Assembly (NCBI GenBank): GCA_030681795.1
Contig: JAUXRG010000044.1
Location: forward strand, 45,943 to 109,942
Direction: 5' to 3'
DNA: 64,000 nt
Source of the DNA: Rubrivivax sp.
GTDB taxonomy: Bacteria > Pseudomonadota > Gammaproteobacteria > Burkholderiales > Burkholderiaceae_C
The stretch's first letter is position 1. Every line of letters begins with the position of its first letter. Shown here piece after piece: positions 683 to 18,181 of the stretch. The translations under genes and the position numbers were made by a program. The notes beneath the pieces were generated by a model. It did no database searches. It was not told the origin of the DNA and saw only the letters and a list, made by a program, of their open reading frames with translations.

Positions 683-750
683 GAACCGGCTTCGCCGGGC
701 CGCTGGCGTTGCCCCCCTGGGGGGGAGGCGGACGAAGTCCGCTTCGGGGG
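683..750. repeat. Compound palindromic intergenic element (REP-like)
   Basis: The 116 bp between recN and nadK hold three hairpins in a row: CCGGC-TTC-GCCGG, CCCCCC-T-GGGGGG and GCGGAC-GAA-GTCCGC, followed by another G-run. Similar strings with purine-loop hairpins between C-runs and G-runs recur between genes in Comamonadaceae as I remember them, so a dispersed REP-type repeat is likely. It could also end or attenuate nadK-recN transcription. I saw no second copy in this window. Confidence 0.5.
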
Positions 751-755
751 GGGAC

Positions 756-1631: not shown

Positions 1632-1701
1632 GCGTCCCATTACACCATAGGGTTGCGGGACAGCCGGCCTGCGCAGGCCTGGGCTACCTACAATCCACAG
1701 C

Positions 1702-2730: not shown

Positions 2731-2814
2731 GCGCGTGCCACCCGATGCGATGTCGTTCGAGCGGCGGCCACCGGGCGCCGTGCCACCCGGCGCCGTGGCC
2801 GTCGGCGCGGCCCC

Positions 2815-2820
2815 TAGAAT
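2815..2820 (+). promoter_or_regulatory. Candidate -10 box of the tRNA gene
   Basis: TAGAAT lies 14 bases before the 5' end of the mature tRNA, the distance expected for a short leader. No clear -35 box is seen in the GC-rich DNA before it, so this is a weak call. Confidence 0.35.
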
Positions 2821-2833
2821 GCCCGTTCTCGGA

Positions 2834-2910
2834 GGGCCGTTAGCTCAGCTGGTCAGAGCAGAGGACTCATAATCCTTTGGTCGTTGGTTCAAGTCCAACA
2901 CGGCCTACCA
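2834..2910 (+). tRNA. tRNA with CAT anticodon (Met elongator or Ile2)
   Basis: The 77 bases fold as a full cloverleaf: acceptor GGGCCGT with ACGGCCT (first pair G-U), D stem GCTC/GAGC, anticodon stem GAGGA/TCCTT around CTCATAA, T stem GTTGG/CCAAC with loop TTCAAGT, discriminator A and an encoded CCA. The anticodon CAT is at 2868-2870. It lacks the three G-C pairs of the initiator anticodon stem. It is either elongator tRNA-Met or the minor tRNA-Ile whose C34 is turned into lysidine by TilS. The TTGGTC-stem-TTCAAGTCC part and acceptor C4-G69 and C5-G68 pairs resemble E. coli Ile2 as I recall it, so I leave both open. Confidence 0.93.
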
Positions 2911-2970
2911 GTCTGAATGTTCTCTTCCCGGTGGCCGTGGCCTGATGCGCGCGGGCCGGCGCGTAAGTGC

Positions 2971-4875
2971 CTAGCGCGGCAGCGCAATCACCGTGCCCTC
3001 GCGCCGCTGGTCGGCGCCACCGTATTGCTTGCCAGTATGCAGGTCGATGATGACCCCCTGCACCGAGCCGATGTTGGCGGTGCAGCCGTCGCTGCCCAAG
3101 GCCCCCAGGCTGGTGTGGCCCAGCGCGCGCAGCGCATCCTGCGTGGCCACGCTGATGCGCGGCTGCATGAAGCTGCCCGTGCCTTCGCACGAGACGCTGC
3201 CGGCCGCGCTGGTGACCGACAGGCGCGGCGCGTCGATGGCCTGTTGGATCGTCATGCCATGGTCGATCAGGTTGAGCGTGGTGTTGAGCACCGAGTTGAT
3301 GATCGTCGAGCCGCCGGGCGAGCCATAGGCCGCAAAGGGCTTGCCGTCGCGCAAGACGATGGTCGGCGACATGCTGCTGCGCGGGCGCTTGAACGGTGCC
3401 ACGTCGTTGGCACCGGGGTTGCCCGTGGCGGCGTTGAAGGTGGGCGCGAAGTTGAAGTCGGTGAGCTCGTTGTTGAGCAGGAAGCCATAGCCCGGCACGG
3501 TGAGGCCGGTGCCCCCGGTGTTCTCGATCGTGGTCGTGTACGACACCACGTTGCCCCATTTGTCGACCACCGAGAAGTGCGTCGTGTGCACGCCCTTCTC
3601 TTCCTCCGACGGAATCGCCGCGAGCTGGATCGGCGCGTGGTTCATGGCGACGTCGAACGGCCGCGGGTCGCCGGCGGCCGGCGTGGCCATGCGCGCGCCC
3701 AGGTCGATCAGGCCGCCCCGCGCGGCGACATAGGTCGGGTCGAGCAGGCCCTTCTTGGGAACGTAGGAAAAGTCTTCGTCGCCCATCCAGACCGCGCGGT
3801 CGGCGAAGGCCAGCCGCATCGACTCGATCATGGCGTGCAGCGTCAGCGGTGAGCCGAAGCCGAACTGGCCGATCGGGAAGCGTTCCAGCATCTTCAGCAT
3901 CTGCACCAGGGTCAGGCCGCCGGACGACGGTGGCGACATCGACGCCACCTGCCAGCCGCGGTATTCGCCGGTGATGGGCTCGCGGATCTTCGCCTCGTAG
4001 CCGCGCAAGTCAGCCAGTGTCATGCGGCCCACGCCCTCGCTGAGCACGGGCGAGCGCGAGCGCTGCTGCGCGCTGACGATGGCCGGCGCGATCTCGCCGC
4101 GGTAGAACACCTCGGCACCCTGTTGGGCGATCAGCCTGAAGGTCTTGGCCAGATCCTTCTGCACCAGCAGGTCGCCTTCGACCAGCTTCACGCCACCCGG
4201 CTGGAAGATCGCCTGGGTCTCGGGCTGGAAGCTGGTGCGCCCGCCGTCGCTGGCGATGTTGGCGGCGAGAAATCGGTTGATGCGAAAGCCGTTCTCGGCC
4301 AGCGCAATGGCCGGCTGCAGCGCCTGCGCCAGCGTCGTCGTGCCCCAGCTCTTCAAGGCCAGGTCGACCGCGGCCAGGGTGCCGGGCACGCCGACCGAGA
4401 GGCCGCTGGACGAGGTCGGTACGAATAGCTGGTTCGGCGACACGCCGGTGAACAGAAACATCGTCGGCGTGGCCGCGGCCGGCGCCGTCTCGCGCCCGTC
4501 GATGGCGAAGGTGCGCCCGCTCTTGGCCAGGTGCACCATCATGAAGCCGCCGCCGCCGATGCCCGAGAACTGCGGCTCGACGACGTTGAGAACGAACTGG
4601 ATCGCCGCGGCGGCATCGATGGCATTGCCGCCCCGCTCGAGCGCGCGCGCCCCGGCTTCGGCCGCGGCGGGGTGCGATACCGCCACCACGCCTTTGTGCG
4701 CGGCCTTGCCGGCCCACGACGGCGGCTTGCCCTGGGCCTGCGGGGGCAGCGTCGGGCCGGGTGGAACGCCGGGGGTGTCGACGCTGCTGTCGGCCCAGGC
4801 GGCGGGGCCGCACAGCAGCGTGGCGAGCAGGACAGCCGCGGCAGTGTGGCGCGGCAACAGGGCGGTCGGCTTCAT
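2971..4875 (-). CDS. ggt: Gamma-glutamyltransferase (glutathione hydrolase)
   Basis: This periplasmic N-terminal nucleophile hydrolase removes the gamma-glutamyl group of glutathione and related peptides. The 634-residue precursor has a signal peptide (MKPTALLPRHTAAAVLLATL to about AWA). It has the large-subunit motif PSSGGLTLVQMLKM and the autoprocessing site GVHTTHFSVVDKWGN, where the second Thr becomes the small-subunit N-terminus and nucleophile, and then GSPGGSTIINSVLN. I start at ATG 4875 with GGAG upstream, rather than the TTG at 4890. It stands alone between a tRNA and a divergent hydrolase, in a gap of about 270 bp in which I see no other gene. Confidence 0.95.
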   Translation of the reverse strand: MKPTALLPRHTAAAVLLATLLCGPAAWADSSVDTPGVPPGPTLPPQAQGKPPSWAGKAAHKGVVAVSHPAAAEAGARALERGGNAIDAAAAIQFVLNVVEPQFSGIGGGGFMMVHLAKSGRTFAIDGRETAPAAATPTMFLFTGVSPNQLFVPTSSSGLSVGVPGTLAAVDLALKSWGTTTLAQALQPAIALAENGFRINRFLAANIASDGGRTSFQPETQAIFQPGGVKLVEGDLLVQKDLAKTFRLIAQQGAEVFYRGEIAPAIVSAQQRSRSPVLSEGVGRMTLADLRGYEAKIREPITGEYRGWQVASMSPPSSGGLTLVQMLKMLERFPIGQFGFGSPLTLHAMIESMRLAFADRAVWMGDEDFSYVPKKGLLDPTYVAARGGLIDLGARMATPAAGDPRPFDVAMNHAPIQLAAIPSEEEKGVHTTHFSVVDKWGNVVSYTTTIENTGGTGLTVPGYGFLLNNELTDFNFAPTFNAATGNPGANDVAPFKRPRSSMSPTIVLRDGKPFAAYGSPGGSTIINSVLNTTLNLIDHGMTIQQAIDAPRLSVTSAAGSVSCEGTGSFMQPRISVATQDALRALGHTSLGALGSDGCTANIGSVQGVIIDLHTGKQYGGADQRREGTVIALPR

Positions 4876-5149
4876 GGTGATCGGCTCCAAGGCAGCGGTG
4901 ACGAAAGGGGCCGATTCTTTGCCGCTCGGCGGCGCCGGTGCTTAGGGCTTTCCCGCTTCCACGCGCGCGTAAGGGTCTTGAGCCGGTGGCGCTGGCGTAG
5001 GGGGTTGGTCGGCTTGCGGCCCATCAGGCAGTGCAGCACCTCGGCCCAGTCTCGGCCGACATCGGCGCAGACAAGTTCGCTCGGCATCCGCACCGGCTCT
5101 GGGGTCTATTCTTGTGCCTGCGCCAAGGCAATGCCGGAGGAGTGAACCA

Positions 5150-5821
5150 ATGAATTGGAAGACCGCCCATCGCTCCTTCTACTATGAAACTGCGCCGGAT
5201 CCAGAAGACCTGCAGCTGCCAGCAGCCCAGACGGCCATGCTTTCGATCGACGTGCAGAACACCTACCTGTTGCCCCGCGACGACCCGCTGCAGCAGGCGC
5301 GATGGGCGCCGTTCCAGCGCCGCATGCGCGAGACCGTGATTCCGACCACGCAGTCACTGCAGCAGGCCTTCAGATCCAAGGGCATCGACGTGATCCATGC
5401 CCGCATCGCCTGCCTGCTCGAGGACGGCCGCGACCGCTCACTGAGTCAGAAAAAACCCGGCTGGAACTACCTTCTGCTGCCCAAGGATTCGGTAGACGCG
5501 CAGATCGTCTGCGAACTGGCACCCAAGCCGGGCGAAATCGTGGTCACCAAGACCACCGACAGCGCATTGACCGGCACCAACCTGCGCCTGATCCTGGCCA
5601 ACATGGGCATCCGCAACGTCGTTCTGACCGGCATCTTCACCGACCAGTGCATTTCGTCGACGGTGCGCAGCCTGGCCGACGAGAGTTTCAACGTCATCGT
5701 GGTCGAAGACTGCTGCGCGGCAGCCACCGACGAACTGCACCGCCGCGAGCTGGAAATCATCAACATGATCTACTGCCACGTGGTGTCGTGCGCCGAACTG
5801 CGCGACATCATGCAACTGTAG
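5150..5821 (+). CDS. Cysteine hydrolase of the isochorismatase family
   Basis: The 223-residue product has the isochorismatase-like hydrolase fold. Its catalytic Asp is in MLSIDVQNTYLLP, its Lys in VVTKTTDSALTGTNL and its Cys in GIFTDQCISSTVRSLADE. Such enzymes hydrolyse amides, for example nicotinamide, N-carbamoyl compounds, biuret or ureidoacrylate. The family alone does not give the substrate. I use ATG 5150, since GGAGGAG lies 9 bases upstream and the family N-terminus follows; the ORF-track start 36 bases earlier is not needed. It converges on the ABC binding protein with only 18 bp between stops. A joint role in uptake and breakdown of an amide is an inference from this closeness. Confidence 0.85.
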   Translation: MNWKTAHRSFYYETAPDPEDLQLPAAQTAMLSIDVQNTYLLPRDDPLQQARWAPFQRRMRETVIPTTQSLQQAFRSKGIDVIHARIACLLEDGRDRSLSQKKPGWNYLLLPKDSVDAQIVCELAPKPGEIVVTKTTDSALTGTNLRLILANMGIRNVVLTGIFTDQCISSTVRSLADESFNVIVVEDCCAAATDELHRRELEIINMIYCHVVSCAELRDIMQL

Positions 5822-5839
5822 TCAGGCAGCACAAGCCGG

Positions 5840-7423
5840 TCAGTCGGCGATGCGTACGGTCTTCGCTGAGATCAGGTTGTCTGCGCGATGCTTGGCGGTG
5901 ACCTTGGCGCTGCTCGCCATCGGAATCATCAGGTGGTAGAGCGGGATGTGGCCGACTTCGCTGTTGTGGATCTGATGCGCTTCGCGAATGAACGCGCGCC
6001 GCTTTTCAGCGTCGGTCTCGCGTTCGACCAGGCCGACCAGTTCGTCGACGCGCGGGTTCGAGTAGTGGCCGAAATTCCAGCTCGCGCTGCCGAATTTCTC
6101 CTGGGACATCATGATGGCGCGCATCGTGTAGAGCGCGTCGAAGGTCGGCACGCCCCAGGTCAGGCCATAGAAGCTGGTGTCTTCGCGCTGGATCTTCTGG
6201 AAGAACAGCGTCGTCGGCATCACGTTGACCTGCACCTCGACATTGATCTGTGCCAGCATCGCTGCGATGGCCAGGCACACTCCCTCGTAGGCGCCGACCG
6301 GGCAATCGAGCGTCACCCGGAAGCCCTCGCGGTAACCCGCTTCGGCAAGCAGCCGTCGCGCCTGCTCGCGATCGACAGCAGGCCGCTGGTCGATACTGGC
6401 GGACCACCCGTTGACATACTGGGTCCACATCGAGCCCGAGGGAACGCCCTGCCCACGAAGCGTGGCGCGCTTGATTGCCTCGACGTCGATGGCCAGCGCG
6501 ACGGCCCGGCGAACGCGCACGTCCTTGAACGGATTGCGGCCCTTGATGTTCGAGTACAGCAATTCGTCACGGCTCTGGTCCATTCCCAGCCACAGCGTGC
6601 GGTTCTCCTGGCCTTCCAGCACCTTGAGGCGCGGGTCCGAGCGCAGTCGGGGGATGTCCTGCACTGGGAGCACGTGGACGAAGTCGACATCGCCGGATAT
6701 CAGCGCCGACACGCGGGTGCTGTCCGACGCGATGATCACGTGGTGATACTCGGTCACGTTGCCCGACACCTTGCTCCACCAAGCGGGGTTCAGCGCCAGG
6801 ACGGTGCGCACGTCGAGCTGCCGCGAACGCAGCACATACGGCCCGGTGCCATTCGTGTTGCGCGCTGCGAACAGATCTTCCTTCTCGCGGAAGTTCTGCG
6901 GCTTCTCCGAGCGGTTGGCCACCGACCAGTCCTTGTCCATGATGAAGATGCGGGTCATCTTGTCCGGGATCACGGCGTCCGCGACGCGGGTGATGACATC
7001 GACCGTCATGGCGTCGACCTTGACGACATCAGCCACCGTATCGACGAACACGCCGTAATTGGAGGTCGGCGCCTTGGCTCGCTGTATGGAGAAGACGACA
7101 TCGTCGGCATCGAATGCGCTGCCGTTGTGGAACTTCACTCCAGGGCGCAAATGGAAACGCCAGCGCGTGGGCTCCGGCTGCTCCCAGCGCACGGCGAGGC
7201 AGGGTTCAAGCTTTAGATCGTCGTCGCGGCAGATCAAGGGCTCGTAGATTTGCTGGAGAACCAGCACGTTGATGAACGCGTTGTTGGCATGGGGGTCGAG
7301 CGTGGCCGCGTCAGACGTCGTGGCAAGGCGAAACGTCTTAGCGCCTGCTGGCGCGATGGCGAATGTCAGGCACGCCAAGGTGGCGACGAACGAGCACAGT
7401 CTGGTCATAGCGTTCTGATCCAT
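5840..7423 (-). CDS. ABC transporter substrate-binding protein, family 5 (DppA/OppA type)
   Basis: This 527-residue periplasmic protein binds peptides, opines or similar solutes for an ABC importer. A signal peptide (MTRLCSFVATLACLTFAIAP, cut after AGA) is followed by the SBP_bac_5 start FRLATTSDAATLDPHANNA. Further family features are RWRFHLRPGVKFHNGSAFDA, DVVFSIQRAK and FKDVRVRRAVALAIDV. ATG 7423 has GAGG 5 bases upstream; ATG 7408 would give a more typical signal peptide. No permease or ATPase gene is near, so it is an orphan that must share a transporter encoded elsewhere. Its GC looks lower than the neighbours, which may mark acquisition. A 5-bp tandem repeat lies directly upstream. Confidence 0.9.
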   Translation of the reverse strand: MDQNAMTRLCSFVATLACLTFAIAPAGAKTFRLATTSDAATLDPHANNAFINVLVLQQIYEPLICRDDDLKLEPCLAVRWEQPEPTRWRFHLRPGVKFHNGSAFDADDVVFSIQRAKAPTSNYGVFVDTVADVVKVDAMTVDVITRVADAVIPDKMTRIFIMDKDWSVANRSEKPQNFREKEDLFAARNTNGTGPYVLRSRQLDVRTVLALNPAWWSKVSGNVTEYHHVIIASDSTRVSALISGDVDFVHVLPVQDIPRLRSDPRLKVLEGQENRTLWLGMDQSRDELLYSNIKGRNPFKDVRVRRAVALAIDVEAIKRATLRGQGVPSGSMWTQYVNGWSASIDQRPAVDREQARRLLAEAGYREGFRVTLDCPVGAYEGVCLAIAAMLAQINVEVQVNVMPTTLFFQKIQREDTSFYGLTWGVPTFDALYTMRAIMMSQEKFGSASWNFGHYSNPRVDELVGLVERETDAEKRRAFIREAHQIHNSEVGHIPLYHLMIPMASSAKVTAKHRADNLISAKTVRIAD

Positions 7424-7676: not shown

Positions 7677-9539
7677 TCAGCGGGAGGCGCCCGCCTCGCG
7701 CAAGTGGCGGTATACGGTGGTGCGAGAAATGCCCAGGCTGCGTGCGGTCTGGCTCACGCTGCAGCTGCGCGCGAAGTCGCGCCGCACGACCTCGGTGGCG
7801 TTGAGTTGCAACGCCGAAGCCGGCCCGGTTGCAGCCACCGGCAGCACAGGCTCGACATCGGCCACCTCAAGCCGGCCGGCACCGCGCAGCAGGGCCCGCG
7901 TCAGCAGCGAGCGCAGCTCGCGGAAATTGCCCGGCCAGCGGTGCTGCGCCAGGCGCTCGATGGCCTGGTCGCTGATCGACGCGCGGCGGTCCAGCGCCGC
8001 CAGCACGCTGCGCACGGCGGGGGCGAAGTCGCGCCGCAGCCGCAGCGGCGGCAGGTCCACGCACACGGTGTTCAGCCGGTACAGCAGGTCAGCGCGGAAA
8101 CGGCGCGCCGCCACCTCTTCTTCCAGATCGGCATGCGTGGCGGCCAGCAACTGCACATCAACGCGGCGGCTCGTGGTGCCGCCCACCGGGCGCACGCTCT
8201 GGTCGTCCAGGAAACGCAGCAAGGCGGCCTGCAGATGCAGCGGCAGCTCGCGCACTTCGTCGAGCAGCAGCGTGCCGCCGTCGGCACTGACGATGAGGCC
8301 GATGCTGCCTTCGCGCCGGGCACCGCTGAAGGCGCCGCCGGCGTAGCCGAAGAGTTCGGCTTCGATCAGCTCGTCGGGCAGCGCGCCGCAGTTCACGGCC
8401 ACGAAGGCGCCGCTGCGGCCGCTGCAGCGGTGGGCATGGCGCGCGAGCACCTCCTTGCCGCTGCCGGTTTCGCCGCGGATCAGGATAGGCGCCTGCATGC
8501 GCACCGCCGCCTCCACCAGGGCGAAGGCTTCGGCCACGGCGGGGTCCTCGGCAACAAACTCGGGCGCCGCGGGCAGGGCCAGCCGGCGCGGCGAGAAGGC
8601 CGGCGCCGGCGCAGCCAGGCGACGCAGCGGCGGCCGGGCGATGCAGCTGGCCACAAGTGCGCTGCCCAGCGCGTCACGCAGGCGCAATTCACCCTCGCGC
8701 TGCAGGCGTGCCATCACGATCTCGAAGGACTCGCCGAACAAGGCCTCGAAGGACGTGCCGGGCGCCGCGTCCAGGCCCTGCAGCAGCTGCGACCCGCGCG
8801 CGTTCAGGGCCAGCAGCCGGCCGCCCTCGTCGAAGGCCAGCAAGCCGGCGCTGAGCGTGCCCAGGAACTCCGGCCGCGGGTGCACCGCCAGCAGCCACTG
8901 CGTGCGCATCTGGTGCTTCAGCAGGCCGTTTTCGATGTGCGTGGCAGCCATTTGCACCAGCGCCTGGGTGTGACGCTGACGCGATTCGAAGTAGCTCGAT
9001 GCGTCGAGCACGCCCACCACTTCGCCCCGTGCATCACGCACCGGCGCCGCGGTGCAGGAGACGTCGCCGAGCTGCAGGAAGTAGTGTTCGAGTCCCGTGA
9101 CGGCCGCCGCTCGCCCGGTGGCCAGCGCCGTGCCCAGGCCGTTGGTGCCGCACAGTGCCTCGCTCCAGCAGCTGCCGGCCACGATGCCGGCGTCGGAGCC
9201 GCTCATCGAAAAACGGTTGTCCGTATACAGGTCAAGGATCACGCCCTCGCGGTCGGCAAAGGCGAGCAGGAAGTTCGAGCCGGCGATTTGCCGCGACAGC
9301 GTTTCCAGCTCGGCCTGCGCCAGCCGGCGCACGACCTCGGCGCTTTCGCGGCGCCGCCGCAGCTCACCGGCTTCAACCACCGGCACCGACAGCGGCGCGG
9401 CGCTGTCCAGACCGGCCTGCATGCAGCGCACCCAGCTGTCCAGCACTTCGGGTGCGGGCAGGCCCTCGGGCGGCATGGCGATGCCGCGCGCGCTCACGGC
9501 CTGCGCGCGGGCCACCTGTGGGTCGGGGATCGGACTCAT
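7677..9539 (-). CDS. Sigma-54-dependent activator, AcoR-like (GAF, AAA+, Fis HTH)
   Basis: This 620-residue enhancer-binding protein drives sigma-54 promoters. It has an N-terminal AcoR-type segment with a GAF-like sensor (SGSDAGIVAGSCWSEALCGT, about residues 80-210). The AAA+ domain has Walker A GETGSGKE, ELFGYAGGAFSGARREG and Walker B GGTLLLDEVRELPL. A Fis-type helix-turn-helix closes it (SVSQTARSLGISRTTVYRHL). The loop that touches sigma-54 is GAFSGA, not the usual GAFTGA. The ORF runs to 10247, but ATG 9539, preceded by CAGGAGGCAGG, starts the recognisable protein. It is divergent from the PQQ dehydrogenase operon and probably controls it. The effector is unknown. Confidence 0.9.
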   Translation of the reverse strand: MSPIPDPQVARAQAVSARGIAMPPEGLPAPEVLDSWVRCMQAGLDSAAPLSVPVVEAGELRRRRESAEVVRRLAQAELETLSRQIAGSNFLLAFADREGVILDLYTDNRFSMSGSDAGIVAGSCWSEALCGTNGLGTALATGRAAAVTGLEHYFLQLGDVSCTAAPVRDARGEVVGVLDASSYFESRQRHTQALVQMAATHIENGLLKHQMRTQWLLAVHPRPEFLGTLSAGLLAFDEGGRLLALNARGSQLLQGLDAAPGTSFEALFGESFEIVMARLQREGELRLRDALGSALVASCIARPPLRRLAAPAPAFSPRRLALPAAPEFVAEDPAVAEAFALVEAAVRMQAPILIRGETGSGKEVLARHAHRCSGRSGAFVAVNCGALPDELIEAELFGYAGGAFSGARREGSIGLIVSADGGTLLLDEVRELPLHLQAALLRFLDDQSVRPVGGTTSRRVDVQLLAATHADLEEEVAARRFRADLLYRLNTVCVDLPPLRLRRDFAPAVRSVLAALDRRASISDQAIERLAQHRWPGNFRELRSLLTRALLRGAGRLEVADVEPVLPVAATGPASALQLNATEVVRRDFARSCSVSQTARSLGISRTTVYRHLREAGASR

Positions 9540-9603
9540 CCTGCCTCCTGGCGCCGGTCCACGCCGGCTTTGGGTCGCGCACGGTAGCAGGACGCAAAGC
9601 CCG

Positions 9604-9636
9604 GGACAACCGCACAGTTTCTGGACAGTTGTCCAG
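9604..9636. promoter_or_regulatory. Palindromic upstream activator site
   Basis: CTGGACAGTTGTCCAG (9621-9636) is a perfect inverted repeat of CTGGACA around GT. A further half-site GGACAAC at 9604-9610 is complementary to GTTGTCC at 9628-9634. The array is about 80-110 bp upstream of the -24/-12 promoter at 9716, the range used by sigma-54 activators, and it lies beside the activator gene. Binding by that activator is inferred. Confidence 0.6.
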
Positions 9637-9715
9637 GTCACTTGCGACAGAGCTGCACGGGCAGTGGCCGCTGCCTCCCTGGGCAGCGCGCCCGCGCTGC
9701 AGGGTGTACCCGCGG

Positions 9716-9731
9716 TGGTATGGGCATTGCA
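9716..9731 (+). promoter_or_regulatory. Sigma-54 (-24/-12) promoter of the PQQ dehydrogenase operon
   Basis: TGGTATGGGCATTGCA matches the TGGCACG-N4-TTGCA consensus with GG and GC at the exact required spacing. Transcription would start near 9742, about 50 bases before the dehydrogenase ATG at 9793. The divergent sigma-54 activator and the palindrome upstream support the call. Confidence 0.7.
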
Positions 9732-9792
9732 TTCTCTTGCCGCTGCGCCGGCCGCCGCGCGCAGTTCCCATCGACAACTCCTGGAGACGATC

Positions 9793-11067
9793 ATGCCCCT
9801 CATACCGACACAGTCTTTGCATGTGCTGGCCGCCGCGGCCCTGTTCGGCGCCATGGCGCTGCCGGCCGCCGCGCAACAGAACATCGACAAACTCAAGCAG
9901 ATGAAGGTCGCGACCACCGACCTCAACATCCCGGTGGTGCCGCAGACCGGTCGCAATGCCGATGCGATCAAGGCCAACCTCAAGCGTGTCAAGCTGCCGC
10001 CAGGTTTTGCAATCGACCTCTTCGCCGTCGTGCCCGACGCGCGCCACATGGCCGTGGCGCCCAACACCAACATGCTGTTCGTGGGCACGCGCAAGACCAG
10101 CGTCTGGGCCGTGACCGACCGCAACAGCGACGGCGTCGCCGACGAGGTCAAGTCTTTCGCGCCGAGCCTGAAGTTCACCAACCCGAACGGCGTGTGCTGG
10201 ACCAAGGATGGCTTCCTGATCGTGGCCGAGCACAACCGCATCCTCAACTTCCCGGCGGCCGAGTTTTTCTACGAAGGCCCGGACGTTGCCGTGATCGAGG
10301 TCGTGGGCCAGGGCAAACTGATCCCGCCGGAGGAAGAGTCGTACAACCACGGCTCGCGCGTGTGCAGGATCGGTCCCGACGGCATGCTGTACGTCAGCCT
10401 GGGCCAGCCGCACAACGTGCAGCCGCGCGACAAGATCAAGCTCTACAACGAGGTCGGCATCGGCGGCATGGTGCGCATGAACGCCTTCGACGGCAGCAAG
10501 CGCGAGGTCTACGCCACCGGCATCCGCAACTCGGTGGGCCATGACTTCAACCCGAAGGACGGCACGCTCTGGTTCACCGACAACCAGACCGACGGCATGG
10601 GTGACGACATCCCCCTGGGTGAGATCAACCGCATCACCAAGGCCGGCCAGTTCTTTGGCTACCCGTGGAAGCAGGGCAAGACCCGCATCACCGATCACGG
10701 CTATGACAAGGACCCGCTGCCGGCCAACATCACCGACCCGCAGGTCTACACGGTGGCGCACGCGGCCGACCTGGGCATGAGCTTCTATGTCGGCAAGATG
10801 TTCCCGGCCAAGTACCAGGGCGGCTTCTTCTCGGCCCAGCACGGCTCGTGGAACCGCACCAAGCCGGTGGGTGCCCAGGTGCTCTTCACCTCGCTGAAGG
10901 CCGACGGCAGCGCCGACAAGACCGAGGTCTTCGCCGAGGGTTGGCTGGACGAGAACGGCATCTACCGTGGCCGACCGGTCGACGTGGCGGTGATGAAGGA
11001 CGGTTCGCTGCTCATCAGCGACGACTTCGCCGGCGCGATCTACCGCGTGACCTACAGCGCGCCGTAA
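9793..11067 (+). CDS. PQQ-dependent sugar/sorbosone-type dehydrogenase
   Basis: The 424-residue precursor has a signal peptide (MPLIPTQSLHVLAAAALFGA, cut after AAA). It then has a six-bladed propeller of the soluble PQQ glucose/sorbosone dehydrogenase family (YliI-like): LPPGFAIDLFAVVPDARHMA, SYNHGSRVCRIGPDGMLYVS, YATGIRNSVGHDFNPKDGTL and FSAQHGSWNRTKPVG. Such enzymes oxidise an aldose or other alcohol in the periplasm and pass electrons to a carrier. ATG 9793 follows CTGGAGACGATC and keeps the signal peptide; the longer ORF start is not credible. It is the first gene of a sigma-54 operon with a cytochrome c and a PqqU-like receptor. The substrate cannot be read from the sequence. Confidence 0.88.
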   Translation: MPLIPTQSLHVLAAAALFGAMALPAAAQQNIDKLKQMKVATTDLNIPVVPQTGRNADAIKANLKRVKLPPGFAIDLFAVVPDARHMAVAPNTNMLFVGTRKTSVWAVTDRNSDGVADEVKSFAPSLKFTNPNGVCWTKDGFLIVAEHNRILNFPAAEFFYEGPDVAVIEVVGQGKLIPPEEESYNHGSRVCRIGPDGMLYVSLGQPHNVQPRDKIKLYNEVGIGGMVRMNAFDGSKREVYATGIRNSVGHDFNPKDGTLWFTDNQTDGMGDDIPLGEINRITKAGQFFGYPWKQGKTRITDHGYDKDPLPANITDPQVYTVAHAADLGMSFYVGKMFPAKYQGGFFSAQHGSWNRTKPVGAQVLFTSLKADGSADKTEVFAEGWLDENGIYRGRPVDVAVMKDGSLLISDDFAGAIYRVTYSAP

Positions 11068-11403
11068 GTGGCCGCGGCGACCCTGCGCGCGGCTTCGGTG
11101 CTGGCCGCGGCGGCTGCCCTTTGCGGGGCGGCCGGCCCGGCCGCTGCCCAGGACGCCGGCGCCGGCCGTGCCAAGGCGCAGGCCTGCACGGTGTGCCACG
11201 GCGCCGTGGGCCTGTCGACCGCGCCCGACGCGCCCCATCTCGCCGGCCAGCCGGCGATCTACCTGGCTGCACAGTTGCGCGCTTATCGCAGCGGCGAGCG
11301 CAAACACGAAGTGATGGCCGTGGTGGCCAAACCCCTGAGCGATGACGACATACGAAACCTGGCCGCCTGGTTCAACTCGATCCGGATCGAAGCGACGCCT
11401 TGA
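11068..11403 (+). CDS. Periplasmic monohaem cytochrome c
   Basis: The 111-residue product has a signal peptide (MAAATLRAASVLAAAAALCG, cut near AAA-QDA), one haem site CTVCHGAVGLS and the distal Met region HEVMAVVAKPLSDDDIRNLA, typical of class I cytochrome c553. It starts at GTG 11068, directly after the TAA of the dehydrogenase, so the two are translationally linked. Its likely job is to take electrons from the PQQ enzyme and feed the respiratory chain. That role rests on operon context. Confidence 0.85.
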   Translation: MAAATLRAASVLAAAAALCGAAGPAAAQDAGAGRAKAQACTVCHGAVGLSTAPDAPHLAGQPAIYLAAQLRAYRSGERKHEVMAVVAKPLSDDDIRNLAAWFNSIRIEATP

Positions 11404-13552
11404 CGGCGTCTGTCTGGCTGCGCTGGCCGCCCTGGCGCTGCCGGCCGCAGCCCAGGCGCTGCCCGCCTCGGCGCCCCCGGAGACCATCGTCGTGATCGGC
11501 AGCGGTGCCGAGCAGCGCGTATTCGACACGCCCTACGCGGTGGGCGTGGTCGACGCGGCGGCGCTGCGCAGTGCCGGGCCGATGGTCAACCTGTCCGAGG
11601 CCCTGGCCCGCGTGCCGGGCCTGGTGGTGAACCTGCGCAACAACTACGCGCAGGACCTGCAGATCAGTTCGCGCGGCTTTGGCGCCCGCGCCAGCTTCGG
11701 TGTGCGCGGCATGCGGCTGTACAGCGACGGCATCCCGGCCGCCGGGCCCGACGGCCAGGGCCAGGTCTCGCACTTCGACCTCGCTGGCGCGGAGCGCGTG
11801 GAAGTGCTGCGTGGCCCGTTCTCGGCGCTGTATGGCAATGGCTCCGGCGGCGTGATCTCGGTGCTCAGCAGCGCGCCCAAGCAACGCGCCTTCTCGGTCG
11901 GCGCGGACGCCGGCAGCGCCGGGCTGCGCCAAGTGCGCGTGGGCATCGACGCCCCTTTCGACAATGGCGTCAGCCTGCGCGCTTCGCTCAGCGGCTTTCT
12001 GGTCGATGGTTTCCGACCGCAGAGCGAAGCGCGGCGCACGCTGGGCAACGTGCGCCTGGGCTACGAGGGCGAGCGCGACCGCGTCGTCGCGGTGCTCAAT
12101 ACGCTCGACGCGCCGGCGCAGGACCCGCTGGGCCTGACGCGCGCACAGTTCGAGGCCGACCCCGACCAGACCACGCCGCAGGCCAAGCAGTTCGACACGC
12201 GCAAGAACACCCGGCAGAGCCAGGCCGGCGCCCACTGGCGCCACCGCTACGCCGACGCCGGCGCCTTGCGCGAGAGCCAACTCACCGTCTACCAGGGCCA
12301 GCGCTCGGTGACGCAATGGCAGGCGATCCCGGTCGCCACCCAGCTCAACCCCGTCGACCCGGCGCTCAGCGAACGCCAGCCCGGCGGCGTCATCGACTTC
12401 GACCGCGAATACCGGGGTGTGGACGCGCGCTTGGTCTGGCGCTGGGCGCTGGGCGCCGAGCGCAGCGCGCAGCTGGTGGCGGGTGCCGCCTACGACGACA
12501 GCCGCGAGGACAGGCGCGGCTTTGAGAACTTCGTCGGCAGCGGCGCCACGCAGGTGTTGGGCGTGACCGGCCGGCTGCGCCGCGACGAGCGCAACCGTGT
12601 CGAGGCGAAGAGTGCTTACGCGCAGGGCGAGTTCCAGCTCACCCCCCGTTGGGCGGCCACGCTGGGCGTGCGCAGCGGCCGTGTCGACTTCCGCTCGGTC
12701 GACCGCTACATCGTCGGCGGCAACCTCGATGATTCCGGCGCCCTGGCCTACCGCTACACCAACCCCGTGGCCGCCGTGCAGTGGCGCGCCAGCGACGAGC
12801 TCAAGGTCTACCTGAGTGCAGGCCGCGGCTTCGAGTCGCCGACCTTCAACGAGCTGGCCTACCGGCCCGACGGCAGCGCCGGCTTCAACACCGAACTCAA
12901 GGGGCAGCGCAGCACGCAGGTTGAGCTGGGTGCCAAGTGGCGCGCTGCGGCGCTGGGCCTGGCCCTCGATGCGGCCGTGTTCGACGCCCGCACCGACGAC
13001 GAGATCGGCGTCGCCACCAACCGGGGCGGCCGCGCGACCTTCCGCAATGTCGACCGCACGCAGCGCCGCGGCGCCGAGATCGACCTGCGCTGGCGCATCG
13101 CCGACGCCTGGCGCGCGCAACTCGCCGCCACCTGGCTGTCGGCGACCTATGCCAACGGCTTTTTCGTCTGCCGCGCCGTGCCCTGCCTGGTGCCGGATCT
13201 GCCGGTGCCGGCCGGCAACCGCATCGCCGGCACGGTGGCGCGCAGCGCCTACGTCGAAGGCGTGTGGGCGCCGGGCGCAGCCGAATTCGGCATCGAAGCA
13301 CGCGCCCAGGGTCGGCAACCGGTGAACGAGACCCACAGCGATTTCGCCAGCGGCTACGGCCTGCTCGCGCTGCGCGCGCTGTGGCGCCTGGACCTCGGCC
13401 CGGGAACACTTGAGCTGCTGGGCCGCGCCGACAACCTGGCCGACCGCCGCGTCGCCGGCAGCGTCATCGTCAACGAGGCCAACCAGCGCTTCTTCGAGCC
13501 GGCGGCGGGGCGCAACTTCCTGCTCAGCGCGCGCTGGAGCCAGCCCTTTTAG
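11342..13552 (+). CDS. pqqU: TonB-dependent receptor, YncD/PqqU-like (PQQ uptake)
   Basis: This outer-membrane beta-barrel has a TonB box region (PPETIVVIGSG), a plug (VNLSEALARVPGLVV, NYAQDLQISSRGFGARASFG, PDGQGQVSHFDLAGAERVEV) and a barrel ending GSVIVNEANQRFFEPAAGRN. These stretches match E. coli YncD, now named PqqU, almost residue for residue as I recall it, including the QFDTRKN and GRGFESPTFNELAYRPDG regions. PqqU takes up pyrroloquinoline quinone with high affinity. Its place in an operon with a PQQ enzyme fits. The start is awkward: ATG 11342 overlaps the cytochrome gene by 62 bp and gives a long n-region (GSKRR) before the signal core LDGVCLAALAALALPAAAQA. No better start codon exists. 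Confidence 0.86.
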   Translation: MTTYETWPPGSTRSGSKRRLDGVCLAALAALALPAAAQALPASAPPETIVVIGSGAEQRVFDTPYAVGVVDAAALRSAGPMVNLSEALARVPGLVVNLRNNYAQDLQISSRGFGARASFGVRGMRLYSDGIPAAGPDGQGQVSHFDLAGAERVEVLRGPFSALYGNGSGGVISVLSSAPKQRAFSVGADAGSAGLRQVRVGIDAPFDNGVSLRASLSGFLVDGFRPQSEARRTLGNVRLGYEGERDRVVAVLNTLDAPAQDPLGLTRAQFEADPDQTTPQAKQFDTRKNTRQSQAGAHWRHRYADAGALRESQLTVYQGQRSVTQWQAIPVATQLNPVDPALSERQPGGVIDFDREYRGVDARLVWRWALGAERSAQLVAGAAYDDSREDRRGFENFVGSGATQVLGVTGRLRRDERNRVEAKSAYAQGEFQLTPRWAATLGVRSGRVDFRSVDRYIVGGNLDDSGALAYRYTNPVAAVQWRASDELKVYLSAGRGFESPTFNELAYRPDGSAGFNTELKGQRSTQVELGAKWRAAALGLALDAAVFDARTDDEIGVATNRGGRATFRNVDRTQRRGAEIDLRWRIADAWRAQLAATWLSATYANGFFVCRAVPCLVPDLPVPAGNRIAGTVARSAYVEGVWAPGAAEFGIEARAQGRQPVNETHSDFASGYGLLALRALWRLDLGPGTLELLGRADNLADRRVAGSVIVNEANQRFFEPAAGRNFLLSARWSQPF

Positions 13553-13630: not shown

Positions 13631-14965
13631 TCACGGCTTGCCCTGAACCGGAATCCAGGCGGGGAAGGGCAGGCGTTCTTCGCACCAACGGGCGGCCGAC
13701 AGCACCCGGTCGTCCTGTCCCTCGGCCCCGACAAGCTGCAAACCCAGCGGCAACCCGCAGGGTCCCAAGCCGGTCGGAAGGGTGAGCGCCGGCACACCGC
13801 ACAGGCTCCAGATGGAGCAAAAGGCAGCGTTGCCGGTCTGTTCCAGGGTGGCCGGCGCCTCACCCGTCGTGGGCAGCGTGATGAGGGCGTCGTATCGCGA
13901 AAGAAACCGGCGCAACTCATCCCGAAGTCGCTGACGCAATGCAAGGGCCTGCTGATAGGCCACGGCGCCGACTCTCGTTCCGTCGGCGATGAAGTCCCGC
14001 AAGGTGGCGCTCAAGAGCCGGGCCTGGTTGAGTGCCAGGGTTTCCAGATTGAATGCGGCCTCGGCGAGCATGACCGTTCTGATGGCCCCATGAGCGAGGC
14101 TGAAGAGATCCGGCAATTCGCGCTCTTCGACTTCGGCGCCACCGGCTCGCAATATTTCTATCGTGCGAGCGAAGTTCTGTTTGGCGTATTCCTGCGCTTG
14201 TTCCCAGACGGGCGTCTTGACGGCGACAAGAACCGGCGGCTTGCCACGCTCAACGAGGGTCGGTGAGATGCTTCCGCCCTCGGGCGACAGGGCCGCTGCG
14301 AACCAGGCGGCGTCTTTGGTATGGCGCGTGAAGACCCCCGGTTGATCCAGCGTGTGGCTGAACGTCAACGCCCCTTCGATGGGGATGATCCCCTGGGTGG
14401 GTTTGAACCCGACCACGCCGCAAAACGCGGCCGGGCGTATGACCGAGCCGTTGGTCTGTGTGCCCAGGGCTGCCGGGACGAACCCCGCTGCGACCGCCGC
14501 CGCCGATCCACTGGAAGAACCTCCCGGCGTATGCAGGCGGTTCCAGGGGTTGCGGGTCTTGCCGGGGGAAATGAAGGCGCATTCCGTGGTGACTGTCTTG
14601 CCCATCACGTAGGCCCCCTGCCCACGGAGCCTGTCGATGACCCGGGCCGAACGGTCCGGAATATTCCCGGCGAAGGCCGCAGAGCCCATTTCCGTGGGCA
14701 CACCGGCGGTGGCGTAGATATCCTTCACCCCGACGGGAATTCCGAGCAGCGGGCCGCAGGCCTCTCCCGACTCGAGGCGCTGGTCGCAAAGGCGGGCCTC
14801 CCGCAGAGCCACCGCCGGATCGAGCCAGGCCCAGGCCTGGATGTCGCCGTCGTGCGCGGCAATCCTCTCGAGCAGGGCCCGTGCGTACTGCTCGGCGGTG
14901 AAGCGCCGGCCTTGGATCCCCTTGGTGGCGGCTATCAGACCCAGGGCATGCAGCGGTTCAGCCAC
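13631..14965 (-). CDS. Amidase of the amidase-signature family
   Basis: The 444-residue cytosolic protein has the Ser-cisSer-Lys triad of amidase-signature enzymes. The Lys is in GIPVGVKDIYATAGVPTEMG, the Ser-rich loop is HTPGGSSSGSAAAVAAGFVP and the nucleophile region is TQTNGSVIRPAAFCGVVGFK. Family members hydrolyse amides, ureas or aryl-acylamides, and some are GatA-like; the substrate is not predictable here. It is shorter than GatA (about 480-490) and has no gatB or gatC partner, so it is not the tRNA amidotransferase. Its ATG lies inside the end of the upstream dehydrogenase gene (8-bp overlap), so the two are co-translated. Confidence 0.88.
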   Translation of the reverse strand: MAEPLHALGLIAATKGIQGRRFTAEQYARALLERIAAHDGDIQAWAWLDPAVALREARLCDQRLESGEACGPLLGIPVGVKDIYATAGVPTEMGSAAFAGNIPDRSARVIDRLRGQGAYVMGKTVTTECAFISPGKTRNPWNRLHTPGGSSSGSAAAVAAGFVPAALGTQTNGSVIRPAAFCGVVGFKPTQGIIPIEGALTFSHTLDQPGVFTRHTKDAAWFAAALSPEGGSISPTLVERGKPPVLVAVKTPVWEQAQEYAKQNFARTIEILRAGGAEVEERELPDLFSLAHGAIRTVMLAEAAFNLETLALNQARLLSATLRDFIADGTRVGAVAYQQALALRQRLRDELRRFLSRYDALITLPTTGEAPATLEQTGNAAFCSIWSLCGVPALTLPTGLGPCGLPLGLQLVGAEGQDDRVLSAARWCEERLPFPAWIPVQGKP

Positions 14966-15935
14966 GGTTCACGCCAGGATTCAGCAGGTCGGGTGGCTGC
15001 CCGGTGGTCAGCGCAGCGACGAGGTTTTCCGCGGCCTTCATCGCCATCTTGAACCGGGTATTCCTGGAGGCACTGGCGATATGGGGCGAGAGCACCACGT
15101 TGGCCAGTTCCTTGAATCCAGGATGAAGCGCGGGTTCGCGTTCGAAGACATCGAGCCCGGCGCCGGCAATGACGCCCGATCGCAGCGCCTCGACCAGGGC
15201 GTCGTCATCGACCACCCCGCCGCGGGCGGTATTGATGAGGATGGCGGATTTCTTCATCAGCGAGATCTCTTGCGCGCCCATCAGGTGGTGGGTCTGCGGG
15301 CTGTAGGGCACATGCAGGCTGACGATGTCCGACTTGCCCAGGAGTTCTTCCCTGGACACGAATCGCGCCCGGCAGGCGGATTCGATCTCGGGAGCAACGC
15401 GGCTCTGGTCGTGGTACAGAACCTCCATGTCGAAACCGAGCGCCCGCCGCGCCACGGCCTGGCCGATTCTTCCCATGCCCATGATGCCCAGCGTCGCATG
15501 GTGGACGTCGAGTCCGAGCAGCTGTTTGAGCTCCCACTTCTTCCATTTCCCGTCGCGCAGGTAGCGCTCGGCTTCGGTGAGGCGGCGGGCGGTGGCGAGG
15601 ATCAAGGTCCAGGCGAAATCGGCGGTCGTATCGTCCAGCACGCCGGGCGTATTGGTCGCCATGACACCGTGGGCGTTGCAGGCCGCGAGATCGATATTGT
15701 TGTAGCCCACGGCGATATTGCAGACCGCCCGCAAATGGGCGCAGCGGCTCAGGAGCGCTTCGTCGATGCGTTCGGTGAGGGCGACCATGGCGCCCTCCTT
15801 GTCGGAAAGAGCGCTGGCCAGCTCTTCGGCAGTGAGCACCGCATCCGCCTGGTTGGAATGGACTTCGAAATGAGTCGCGAGAAAGTCCAGCACTTCTTCG
15901 AAGATCTCCCGCGAGACAAATATTTTCTTGTTCAT
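14958..15935 (-). CDS. D-2-hydroxyacid dehydrogenase (glyoxylate/hydroxypyruvate reductase type)
   Basis: This 325-residue NAD(P)-dependent enzyme interconverts 2-keto acids and D-2-hydroxy acids. The Rossmann motif GIMGMGRIGQAVARRALGFD is central. The catalytic Arg is in INTARGGVVDDDALVEAL, the Glu in AGAGLDVFEREPAL and the His in VVLSPHIASASRNTRF. It resembles GhrB/TkrA. The start at ATG 15935 follows AAAGAGGAAG and gives MNKKIFVSREIFEEVLDFLA; the longer ORF start lacks support. It overlaps the amidase by 8 bp, which suggests the pair converts an amide to an acid that is then reduced or oxidised. This pathway is inference. Confidence 0.9.
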   Translation of the reverse strand: MNKKIFVSREIFEEVLDFLATHFEVHSNQADAVLTAEELASALSDKEGAMVALTERIDEALLSRCAHLRAVCNIAVGYNNIDLAACNAHGVMATNTPGVLDDTTADFAWTLILATARRLTEAERYLRDGKWKKWELKQLLGLDVHHATLGIMGMGRIGQAVARRALGFDMEVLYHDQSRVAPEIESACRARFVSREELLGKSDIVSLHVPYSPQTHHLMGAQEISLMKKSAILINTARGGVVDDDALVEALRSGVIAGAGLDVFEREPALHPGFKELANVVLSPHIASASRNTRFKMAMKAAENLVAALTTGQPPDLLNPGVNRG

Positions 15936-16111
15936 GCCTTCTTCCTCTTTCGGTGGTGGCGAAATCAAGTGATGGACCCTGCAGGGGCGCGCACCAGGAT
16001 CTTGCCACGCGAGCCGCTGGGGCCAAGGCACCCGGCCCGGCCGATCGTCGGCTGTGTGGTTCGGTCGGGAACCGGCGCCCTGTGTCTCGTGCGGGCTTAC
16101 AGTCGGCGCCC

Positions 16112-17179
16112 ATGAAGCTCTATCGCATTGCCACGATTCCCGGCGACGGCATCGGCAAGGAAGTGATTCCCGCCGGCCAGCAGGTGCTGCAGGCGCTGGC
16201 CAATTCCAGTGGCGCGTTCGGCCTCGAGTTCGAGAACTTCGGCTGGGGCGGCGACTGGTACCGCGCCCACGGCGTGATGATGCCCGCCGACGGGCTGGAC
16301 GCGCTGCGCGGCAAGGACGCCATCCTGTTCGGCTCGGCCGGCGACCCGCAGATCCCCGACCATGTCACGCTGTGGGGCCTGCGGCTGAAGATCTGCCAGG
16401 GCTTCGACCAATACGCCAACGTGAGGCCCACGCGCATCCTGCCCGGCATCGACGCGCCGCTGAAACGCTGCCGGCCACAGGACCTGGACTGGGTCATCGT
16501 GCGCGAGAACTCCGAAGGCGAATATGCCGGCGTGGGGGGCCGCGCCCACCAGGGCCACCCGATCGAGGTCGCCACCGACGTGTCGATCATGACGCGCGTG
16601 GGCGTCGAACGCATCATGCGTTTCGCTTTCCGGCTCGCCGCCGCACGGCCGCGCAAGCAGCTCACGGTGGTGACCAAGAGCAACGCGCAGCGCCATGCGA
16701 TGGTGATGTGGGACGAGATCGCCGCTCAGGTGGCGAGCGAGTTTCCGGACGTGAAGTGGGACAAGGAACTGGTGGACGCGATGACCGCGCGCATGGTCAA
16801 CCGGCCGGCCAGCATAGACACCGTGGTGGCCACGAACCTGCATGCCGATGTCCTGTCCGACCTGGCTGCGGCGCTGGCCGGCAGCCTGGGCATCGCACCC
16901 ACCGGCAATATCGACCCCGAACGCCGCTACCCGAGCATGTTCGAGCCGATCCACGGCTCGGCCTTCGACATCATGGGTCTGGGCCTGGCCAACCCGGTGG
17001 GCACCTTCTGGTCCTGCGTGATGCTGCTGCAGCACCTGGGCGAGGACGCTGCCGCCGCGCGCCTGATGGCGGCCATCGAGGCGGTCACGGCCGACACCGC
17101 ATTGCACACCCGCGACCTCGGTGGCCGCGCCACCACGGCGCAGGTGACCGCCGCGGTGTGCAGCCACTTGGGCCATTGA
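16112..17179 (+). CDS. Tartrate / D-malate dehydrogenase type enzyme (TtuC/DmlA family)
   Basis: The 355-residue product is a beta-decarboxylating dehydrogenase of the isocitrate/isopropylmalate superfamily. It starts MKLYRIATIPGDGIGKEVIP and has VRENSEGEYAGVGGRAHQG, VTKSNAQRHAMVMWDEIAAQ and the metal-binding stretch ATNLHADVLSDLAAALAGSL. The ENSEGEYAGVGG form is typical of the tartrate dehydrogenase/D-malate dehydrogenase branch rather than LeuB or Icd. It oxidises tartrate, D-malate or a related 2-hydroxy-dicarboxylate with NAD and divalent metal. ATG 16112 is preferred over the long upstream ORF. It is divergent from the hydroxyacid dehydrogenase-amidase pair and 45 bp upstream of a Bug binding protein, which probably supplies the substrate. 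Confidence 0.87.
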   Translation: MKLYRIATIPGDGIGKEVIPAGQQVLQALANSSGAFGLEFENFGWGGDWYRAHGVMMPADGLDALRGKDAILFGSAGDPQIPDHVTLWGLRLKICQGFDQYANVRPTRILPGIDAPLKRCRPQDLDWVIVRENSEGEYAGVGGRAHQGHPIEVATDVSIMTRVGVERIMRFAFRLAAARPRKQLTVVTKSNAQRHAMVMWDEIAAQVASEFPDVKWDKELVDAMTARMVNRPASIDTVVATNLHADVLSDLAAALAGSLGIAPTGNIDPERRYPSMFEPIHGSAFDIMGLGLANPVGTFWSCVMLLQHLGEDAAAARLMAAIEAVTADTALHTRDLGGRATTAQVTAAVCSHLGH

Positions 17180-17224
17180 AGGCGGCATCCGACAAGTTCA
17201 ATCCACCGACGAGGAGACACGAAC

Positions 17225-18181
17225 ATGGTGACGAGACTCATGAGAACCCTGGCGCTGGGCCTGGCCGCACTGGCCTCGCTGCCGGCAGGGGCCCAACCCT
17301 GCCCTGAGAAGAACCTGATGTACTGGCAGGCCTTCCCGCCCGGCGGCGAGAGCGACCTCTCGGCGCGCCACCAACAGGTCGTGCTGAAGAAGAAGTGCCC
17401 CGCCATCGAAACCATCATTCAGTACAAGACCGGTGCGGGGGGCGCACTGATGTGGAGCCAGATGAATGCGCTGCCGGGCGATGGCGTGAACATCGTGGGC
17501 ATCAACCTGCCGCACACCGTGCTGCAGCCGATGGAAGGTGTCGTGCAGTACAAGACCGAGGACATCACCCCGGTGTTCTGGTTCCACTACACGCCCGACA
17601 TCCTGGTCGTTCCGCAGGACAGCCCGATCAAGAATTTCGCCGATTTCGTGAAGACGGCCAAGGCCGATCCGGGCAAGCTCAACCTGGGCGGATCGGGCCT
17701 GAATTCGGCCAACCACGCGGCGCACGAGCGCATGAACAATTTCTTCGGCGTGAAGACGACCTACGTGCCGTTCAAGGGCACGGGCGACATGACCATGGCC
17801 GTGCTCGGCAGCCACGTCCACGGCGCGATGACCTACACCGCCTTCGCCATCAACCAGAAGGGCAAGGTGCGTGGCCTGGCCGTGGCGATGGACAAACGCC
17901 ACCCGCTGATGCCCGACGTGCCCACCTTCAGGGAACTCGGCATCGACTGGGTGGACGGTGCCTTCCGCGGCATCGGTGTGCCCAAGAGCACGCCGCCCGA
18001 GGCGCGCAAACGCCTGGCCGAGCTGTGGGCCGCGCTGAACGCCGACCCGGAGATGCAGCAGTTGGCCGCCAAGAGCGGTTTCGAGTTGATCAATATCGGC
18101 CCCGACCGCATGGATGCCTTCATGAAGGAGAAGATCAAGGTCTATACCGACGTGGGCAAGCAGATGGGCCTGGGCAAATAG
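17225..18181 (+). CDS. Bug-family (TctC) periplasmic substrate-binding protein
   Basis: The 318-residue precursor has a signal peptide (MVTRLMRTLALGLAALASLP, cut at GAQ) and the Bug-family fold. Characteristic parts are PFKGTGDMTMAVLGSHVHGA, MPDVPTFRELGIDW and the C-terminal helical region LWAALNADPEMQQLAAKSG. These proteins deliver carboxylates to tripartite tricarboxylate transporters, and most are orphans, greatly expanded in Burkholderiales. GAGGAG lies 10 bases before the ATG. It follows the tartrate-dehydrogenase-like gene, so tartrate, malate or another dicarboxylate is a reasonable guess for its ligand. No TctA or TctB gene is in the window. Confidence 0.9.
   Translation: MVTRLMRTLALGLAALASLPAGAQPCPEKNLMYWQAFPPGGESDLSARHQQVVLKKKCPAIETIIQYKTGAGGALMWSQMNALPGDGVNIVGINLPHTVLQPMEGVVQYKTEDITPVFWFHYTPDILVVPQDSPIKNFADFVKTAKADPGKLNLGGSGLNSANHAAHERMNNFFGVKTTYVPFKGTGDMTMAVLGSHVHGAMTYTAFAINQKGKVRGLAVAMDKRHPLMPDVPTFRELGIDWVDGAFRGIGVPKSTPPEARKRLAELWAALNADPEMQQLAAKSGFELINIGPDRMDAFMKEKIKVYTDVGKQMGLGK

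Follow-up and report, generated by a model that had tools for sequence, protein, structure and literature searches.

The window that we analysed, a stretch of 64,000 nucleotides from Rubrivivax sp., contains an operon that, judged from its sequence, is most probably a unit for scavenging and using PQQ. Its three genes would provide a receptor for uptake of the cofactor, a dehydrogenase that uses it and a cytochrome c that accepts the electrons, with control exerted by a divergently transcribed activator.

The operon and its products

An earlier note on this DNA had described an operon made up of a dehydrogenase, a cytochrome c and a PqqU-like receptor, and the gene calls in the window bear this out: all three genes are present on the forward strand in a nearly gapless arrangement. 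The dehydrogenase gene (P0001; 9793 to 11067, + strand) is followed directly after its stop codon by the GTG start codon of the cytochrome c gene (P0002; 11068 to 11403, + strand), and the ATG of the receptor gene (P0003; 11342 to 13552, + strand) lies inside the cytochrome gene, with an overlap of 62 bp.

The dehydrogenase has 424 amino acids from its ATG and a Sec-type signal, and is predicted to be a secreted, six-bladed, AA12-like member of the GSDH family that depends on PQQ and Ca. It matches the GSDH family PF07995 weakly, at 51 bits compared with more than 420 bits for Asd-type members. A profile of the protein recovers PQQ enzymes from the PDB, namely TrAA12 (3.7e-12), CcPDH, PaeASD and sGDH, with AA12 as the best match. 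The AlphaFold model (pLDDT 86) has the sGDH/AA12 propeller fold; its top Foldseek matches are 6jt5 and 6i1q, the AA12 enzymes CcPDH and TrAA12, and sGDH is also matched. The PQQ and Ca ligands of CcPDH and TrAA12 have been named (PMC6881789, PMC6881810), and all of those in the fungal AA12 PQQ-dehydrogenases that can be mapped are kept here, including the catalytic His. In the numbering of P0001, whose first residue is the one preceding the ATG, the PQQ ligands Arg273, His363, Arg430, Asn431, His539, His560, Trp563, Asn564 and Arg621 of CcPDH (or their TrAA12 equivalents) align with R85, H187, R246, N247, H324, H351, W354, N355 and R395, and the Ca ligand Asp451 aligns with D268. Among 23 homologues R85, H187, R246, N247, D268, H324, W354, N355 and R395 are invariant. 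The protein is thus very probably a PQQ enzyme, as had been claimed, on the strength of its profile and fold matches to AA12 enzymes. It is of the six-bladed GSDH/AA12 type and not of the eight-bladed alcohol dehydrogenase type.

The fungal AA12 enzymes share with this dehydrogenase the six-bladed propeller and the PQQ and Ca ligands, but the two are only about 17% identical in a structure alignment, and the protein described here is bacterial and lacks a fused cytochrome b, its cytochrome c being a separate protein. The bacterial PF07995 enzymes sGDH and Asd have in common with it the fold, the catalytic His, the Arg-Asn pair and the C-terminal Arg; it has no evident equivalent of their Lys377 or Arg408. 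Conversely, Arg273 and the HGSWN loop of AA12 have equivalents here and none in bacterial sGDH.

The cytochrome c (111 amino acids; PF00034, 32 bits) is of the single-haem class I type, with the haem motif CTVCH (CXXCH) and a hydrophobic N-terminus that we judged by eye to be an export signal. It is likely to be the electron acceptor of the dehydrogenase, and most linked loci in other genomes have a cytochrome c gene beside the dehydrogenase gene.

The receptor (736 amino acids), a predicted PQQ importer, matches the plug and barrel families in a Pfam profile search. Its best PDB matches, both full-length, are structures of E. coli YncD/PqqU (6v81, E 4e-143; 9c4o, E 3e-142), and the motifs on which a likeness to PqqU along plug and barrel had been proposed do align with that protein. 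At the PQQ-contact positions that we examined the receptor is identical to E. coli PqqU in 10 cases out of 11: Q104, Q141, K288, R321, Q325, Q327, R391, N503, Y507 and R564 correspond to Q84, Q121, K274, R304, Q308, Q310, R365, N477, Y481 and R536, and F119 replaces Y99. This Y99F difference is accepted by the published PqqU signature, which consists of an aromatic residue at 99 and Arg at 304 and 365 (Munder et al. 2025, PMC12124388). The receptor carries the signature as F119, R321 and R391, and each of the 99 PqqU loci in the order conforms to it too.

TonB receptors easily change ligand, and the protein could on those grounds import something else, such as the substrate of the dehydrogenase, its likeness to PqqU reflecting ancestry alone. 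Its score of 584 bits against the NCBIfam PqqU model NF041535, whose curated equivalog cut-off lies higher, at 1200 bits, points the same way. This cut-off is an annotation threshold and not a functional feature; not one genome among the 300 examined in the order reaches it while the E. coli control passes, which indicates that it marks sequences close to that of E. coli. The PQQ-contact residues are all kept despite a diverged barrel, and the receptor and E. coli PqqU fall in one supported branch of 10 rows (SH-aLRT 96) instead of in another TonB clade with changed ligand residues. A different ligand is therefore most improbable, and we take the receptor to be a probable PQQ importer. In E. 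coli, Gcd, the enzyme served by PqqU, is encoded elsewhere than pqqU, whereas here the genes for receptor, enzyme and cytochrome c form one operon.

Probable control of the operon

Positions 9540 to 9792 contain no gene and form the promoter region. On its far side a sigma-54-dependent activator (7677 to 9539, - strand) is divergently encoded; it has GAF, AAA+ and HTH domains in an AcoR-like architecture (PF00158, 194 bits; PF01590, 49 bits) and is likely, from its position and domains, to be the regulator of the operon. A candidate sigma-54 (-24/-12) promoter, TGGTATGGGCATTGCA (9716 to 9731, + strand), lies about 60 bp before the ATG of the dehydrogenase gene. Its pattern, TGGYAYN5TTGC, occurs twice in the window against an expectation of 0.57. 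Of 78 named relatives, 25 have an activator homologue in divergent orientation in front of the dehydrogenase gene, and when the scan was anchored on the match start of the dehydrogenase homologue the pattern was found upstream in 11 of these 25, compared with three of the 53 that lack the divergent activator; the chance rate is 0.0002 per upstream region. The gene overlap and the recurrence of the promoter with the divergent activator both favour the proposal that uptake and use form one regulated unit. We rejected the idea of a sigma-54 promoter common to all linked loci: in the more distant ones the promoter was not seen and no close activator homologue stands divergently before the enzyme gene, so the feature belongs to one lineage.

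The promoter region also contains a perfect palindrome, CTGGACAGTTGTCCAG (9621 to 9636, + strand), the only such palindrome in the window, where 0.14 would be expected at up to two mismatches. The identical sequence was not found in relatives; we therefore rejected it as a conserved activator site and regard it only tentatively as a possible activator site.

PQQ supply and PQQ enzymes in the genome and the order

In the source genome, a draft that is 93% complete, we found no pqqC, no match to pqqE over the cut-off and no eight-bladed quinoprotein dehydrogenase. The sole PF13360 match is BamB-like and the single GSDH gene is that of the operon, whose product is the only candidate PQQ enzyme and likely to be the only one to use PQQ. 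The bacterium seems, by its gene content, to be unable to make PQQ, in keeping with the earlier suggestion that it relies on PQQ made by others. The strain might nevertheless be a producer, with a pqq operon in the missing 7% and a receptor that only takes back cofactor lost from the cell; uptake and use would then still be joined in one operon, but the cell would not depend on others. The draft state of the genome and the presence of pqqC in 34 of the 97 PqqU genomes of the order allow for this, but pqqE is missing as well as pqqC, and in the genus pqqC is rare (6/60 genomes; 3/36 good ones) while PqqU is present in 51 of 60. We consider production by the strain unlikely and dependence on external PQQ the better reading.

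PqqU is carried by 97 of the 300 genomes of the order. A dehydrogenase of the operon's kind adjoins it in 21 of these, in nine families and in differing orientations. Both genes are held by 66 genomes, and the 21 adjacent pairs compare with an expectation, by our own estimate, of well under one under random placement, so the neighbourhood is not due to chance. Within the genus the pair is linked by coordinates in 13 of 60 genomes. Rivibacter subsaxonicus DSM 19570 and Piscinibacter sakaiensis 201-F6 are examples of culturable environmental relatives that share the gene order. In Burkholderiales the linkage is thus recurrent, though it is a minority arrangement and not universal: among named loci with a dehydrogenase homologue PqqU is adjacent in 29 of 80 and not adjacent in 51. 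Elsewhere in the class only one of 20 PqqU loci has a GSDH neighbour. The parts were already known; the recurrent PqqU-GSDH linkage appears to be unreported, as literature searches that covered few subscription papers turned up no description of a GSDH gene linked with PqqU. Clusters of xoxF3 in Acidobacteria and Gemmatimonadetes similarly place a TonB receptor, together with YncE, beside genes for a PQQ enzyme and a cytochrome c; that enzyme, in contrast to ours, is eight-bladed and lanthanide-dependent and occurs in other phyla, and in the description of these clusters we found no ligand named for the receptor (PMC10875860).

An eight-bladed enzyme or a GSDH is present in every one of the 97 PqqU genomes. 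Where both pqqC and an eight-bladed enzyme are lacking, GSDH is found in 45/45 genomes with PqqU and in 64/175 comparable genomes without it, and the co-occurrence of PqqU and GSDH among genomes of the order has a p value of 1e-20 in a test that ignores shared ancestry. For close homologues of the dehydrogenase, PqqU or pqqC is present in 22 of 23 genomes compared with 121 of 300 overall (p 9e-9, again ignoring shared ancestry). These figures bear on the possibility that the receptor imports PQQ for other enzymes or uses, as an antioxidant or nutrient, next to a GSDH that is PQQ-free or there by chance. GSDH-fold proteins do include non-enzymes such as HHIP, and a GSDH neighbour is missing from most PqqU loci; against this stand the lack of another PQQ enzyme of known family in the genome, the full set of cofactor ligands in the dehydrogenase, and the co-occurrence and the adjacency in nine families. 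Such an unconnected role is very unlikely, and service to the co-encoded enzyme is the reading that we retain.

A recent survey could assign PQQ enzymes to just 67% of PqqU carriers and proposed for the remainder either a PQQ enzyme that had escaped identification or a role that is not enzymatic; its stated search used PF01011, PF13360, PF13570 and a dehydrogenase model, and GSDH is not named (Munder et al. 2025, PMC12124388). We lean towards the view that it is mainly for enzymes of the GSDH family, and not for eight-bladed ones, that many proteobacteria lacking PQQ biosynthesis retain an importer for the cofactor, and that the linked operons mark the unrecognised PQQ enzymes of PqqU genomes reported to have none.

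A proposed path for PQQ

By analogy with E. coli PqqU, the receptor would take up PQQ from the surroundings of the cell and carry it through the outer membrane in a TonB-powered step. In the periplasm PQQ and Ca2+ would load into the co-encoded AA12/GSDH-type apo-dehydrogenase, which could then oxidise its substrate, perhaps a sugar or another alcohol or an aldehyde, with the co-encoded cytochrome c accepting the electrons and handing them on to the respiratory chain. The divergent GAF-domain activator probably turns on enzyme, acceptor and cofactor uptake jointly in response to an inducer.

The recurrence of the importer-enzyme pairing in many relatives suggests what many PQQ-scavenging bacteria use PQQ for. 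The open question about PqqU carriers that seem to lack an enzyme becomes simple to test, and AA12-like PQQ enzymes of bacteria become available as a class to characterise. An operon that ties the importer to the enzyme supports the concept that PQQ is a shared good and has consumers dedicated to it.

Operon layout and candidate promoter

The predicted importer belongs to a unit of three genes that are read in one direction from the same strand without real gaps between them: the dehydrogenase gene (9793-11067), the cytochrome c gene (11068-11403) and the receptor gene (11342-13552), whose start is supported because its relatives align from residue 1. These are the genes of the unit proposed in the earlier note, but its start at 9539 coincides with the border of a divergent regulator gene; the promoter region lies between that gene and the dehydrogenase gene (9540-9792). 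The regulator is a sigma-54 activator with GAF and AAA+ domains, and a candidate promoter between it and the operon, TGGTATGGGCATTGCA at 9716, is a good -24/-12 match. Among named relatives, the strict -24/-12 pattern (chance 0.0002 per upstream region) was found 5' of the dehydrogenase gene in 11 of the 25 that have a divergent homologue of the activator and in 3 of the 53 that do not (p 1e-4). This recurrence backs the earlier suggestion of one regulated unit, so joint induction of enzyme, acceptor and importer is probable in this lineage; at the more distant linked loci we saw neither the pattern nor a divergent activator homologue. Downstream (13631-18181) are genes for an amidase, a D-2-hydroxyacid dehydrogenase and a TctC-type binding protein, with no evident tie to PQQ.

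The host is a Rubrivivax-like Burkholderiales bacterium (nearest named loci: Rubrivivax and Paucibacter) with a draft genome of 4.18 Mb in 122 contigs. In keeping with the earlier idea that the cell relies on PQQ made by others, a whole-genome search found no pqqC and no pqqE over the cut-off in this 93% complete draft. The host genome has exactly one GSDH gene, the operon's own, no eight-bladed quinoprotein dehydrogenase was found in it, and its one PQQ_2 protein is BamB-like by length and neighbour; thus no protein other than the operon enzyme is recognisable as a user of imported PQQ. Of 60 genomes of the genus, 6 have pqqC and 51 have the receptor.

Predicted importer and enzyme

The match of the receptor to E. 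coli PqqU, first noticed along plug and barrel, spans the whole protein. In an alignment of 149 receptors (E. coli reference taken from the full-length match), eleven positions that contact PQQ in the cryo-EM structure (PMC12124388) read QFQKRQQRNYR in the window and QYQKRQQRNYR in E. coli. The published signature, Y, F or W at 99 with Arg at 304 and 365 (PMC12124388), is complete in this receptor and in all 99 of the order. Placement in another TonB clade was not borne out: in a 121-receptor tree it and E. coli PqqU belong to the same supported set of ten, within which the long end branch of the window's receptor leaves its exact place unsure. It scores below the NCBIfam PqqU equivalog cut-off, as do the matches in all 97 PqqU genomes of the order. 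Elsewhere in the class, three PqqU-like receptors (loci L152, L155, L159) have T or K instead of Arg304, and Glu at 274; from these residues, their ligand may be different or a metal-PQQ complex.

The enzyme matches Pfam GSDH at 51 bits. A profile of 23 homologues matched, best first, fungal AA12 PQQ enzymes, E. coli Asd, and archaeal and Acinetobacter sugar dehydrogenases, and the closest folds to its predicted structure (pLDDT 86) are CcPDH and TrAA12. We read the profile alignments against the residue numbers of two AA12 structure papers (PMC6881789, PMC6881810), and PQQ and Ca ligand residues of the fungal enzymes were matched in the bacterial one. TrAA12 Arg57/CcPDH Arg273 corresponds to R85, His153/His363 to H187, Arg220/Arg430 to R246, CcPDH Asn431 (Asp221 in TrAA12) to N247, the Ca ligand Asp242/Asp451 to D268, His330/His539 to H324, His350/His560 to H351, CcPDH Trp563 and Asn564 to W354 and N355, and CcPDH Arg621 to R395; owing to a gap in the CcPDH alignment, CcPDH His363, Arg430, Asn431 and Asp451 had to be placed via TrAA12. 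Of the ten bacterial residues, H351 alone varies among the 23 homologues. Arg273 and the Trp563/Asn564 loop separate AA12 from known bacterial quinoproteins, according to the CcPDH structure paper; since equivalents of both are present, this bacterial group appears, by its residues, to bind PQQ in the AA12 manner.

Linkage across the order and class

Among 300 Burkholderiales genomes, PqqU occurs in 97 and a relative of the dehydrogenase in 100, with both in 66 (32 expected). The gene order recurs, as the earlier note had proposed to check: the two genes adjoin in 21 genomes from nine families, in co-directional, divergent or convergent pairs, usually with a cytochrome c gene between or beside them. 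By profile search, PqqU loci with an adjoining GSDH rise to 28 of 99, including canonical Asd-type genes in two further groups. Explaining the linkage on the receptor tree takes no fewer than 18 changes (15 when the weakest matches are left out); gain or loss has thus been frequent. PqqU lies in 29 of 80 named loci of close dehydrogenase homologues, including those of Piscinibacter sakaiensis, Rivibacter subsaxonicus, Paucibacter and Polaromonas. In the rest of the class, a GSDH neighbour was seen at 1 of 20 PqqU loci.

Other arrangements were seen. At five loci (L120, L121, L132, L136, L161) an Asd-type GSDH gene directly adjoins PqqU (4-56 bp), a second, separate importer-enzyme pairing. In locus L131 (genome G215, 2-5888) a single PqqU gene lies between two different GSDH and cytochrome c pairs, one per subtype, the GSDH proteins sharing about 37% and 72% identity with the enzyme of the window. 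In locus L108 (genome G211) a TAA interrupts the PqqU frame and the neighbouring GSDH is a short C-terminal piece only, either a decaying operon or an assembly error. PqqU is near an eight-bladed PQQ alcohol dehydrogenase gene in several genomes (loci L051, L096, L100, L082), and by coordinates it is no more than about 8 kb from pqqC in 18 of the 34 order genomes with both (e.g. G016, G166, G222, G048, G092, G065); a 2025 survey mentions PqqU-pqq synteny for four Burkholderiales genomes (PMC12124388).

Probable PQQ use by PqqU carriers

Each of the 97 PqqU genomes of the order has an eight-bladed enzyme or a GSDH. GSDH is present in 45 of 45 PqqU genomes that lack both pqqC and an eight-bladed enzyme, against 64 of 175 comparable genomes without PqqU, a test and comparison that ignore shared ancestry. 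Of the genomes with close homologues of the window's dehydrogenase, 22 of 23 have a PQQ source, PqqU or pqqC (again ignoring ancestry). Each part of the operon belongs to a known family; what appears new within the literature searched is how the parts are arranged and the inferred use that PqqU carriers make of PQQ. With PF01011, PF13360, PF13570 and a dehydrogenase model as its search models, the 2025 survey assigned no PQQ enzyme to roughly a third of PqqU carriers (PMC12124388), and GSDH is the obvious family missing from that search.
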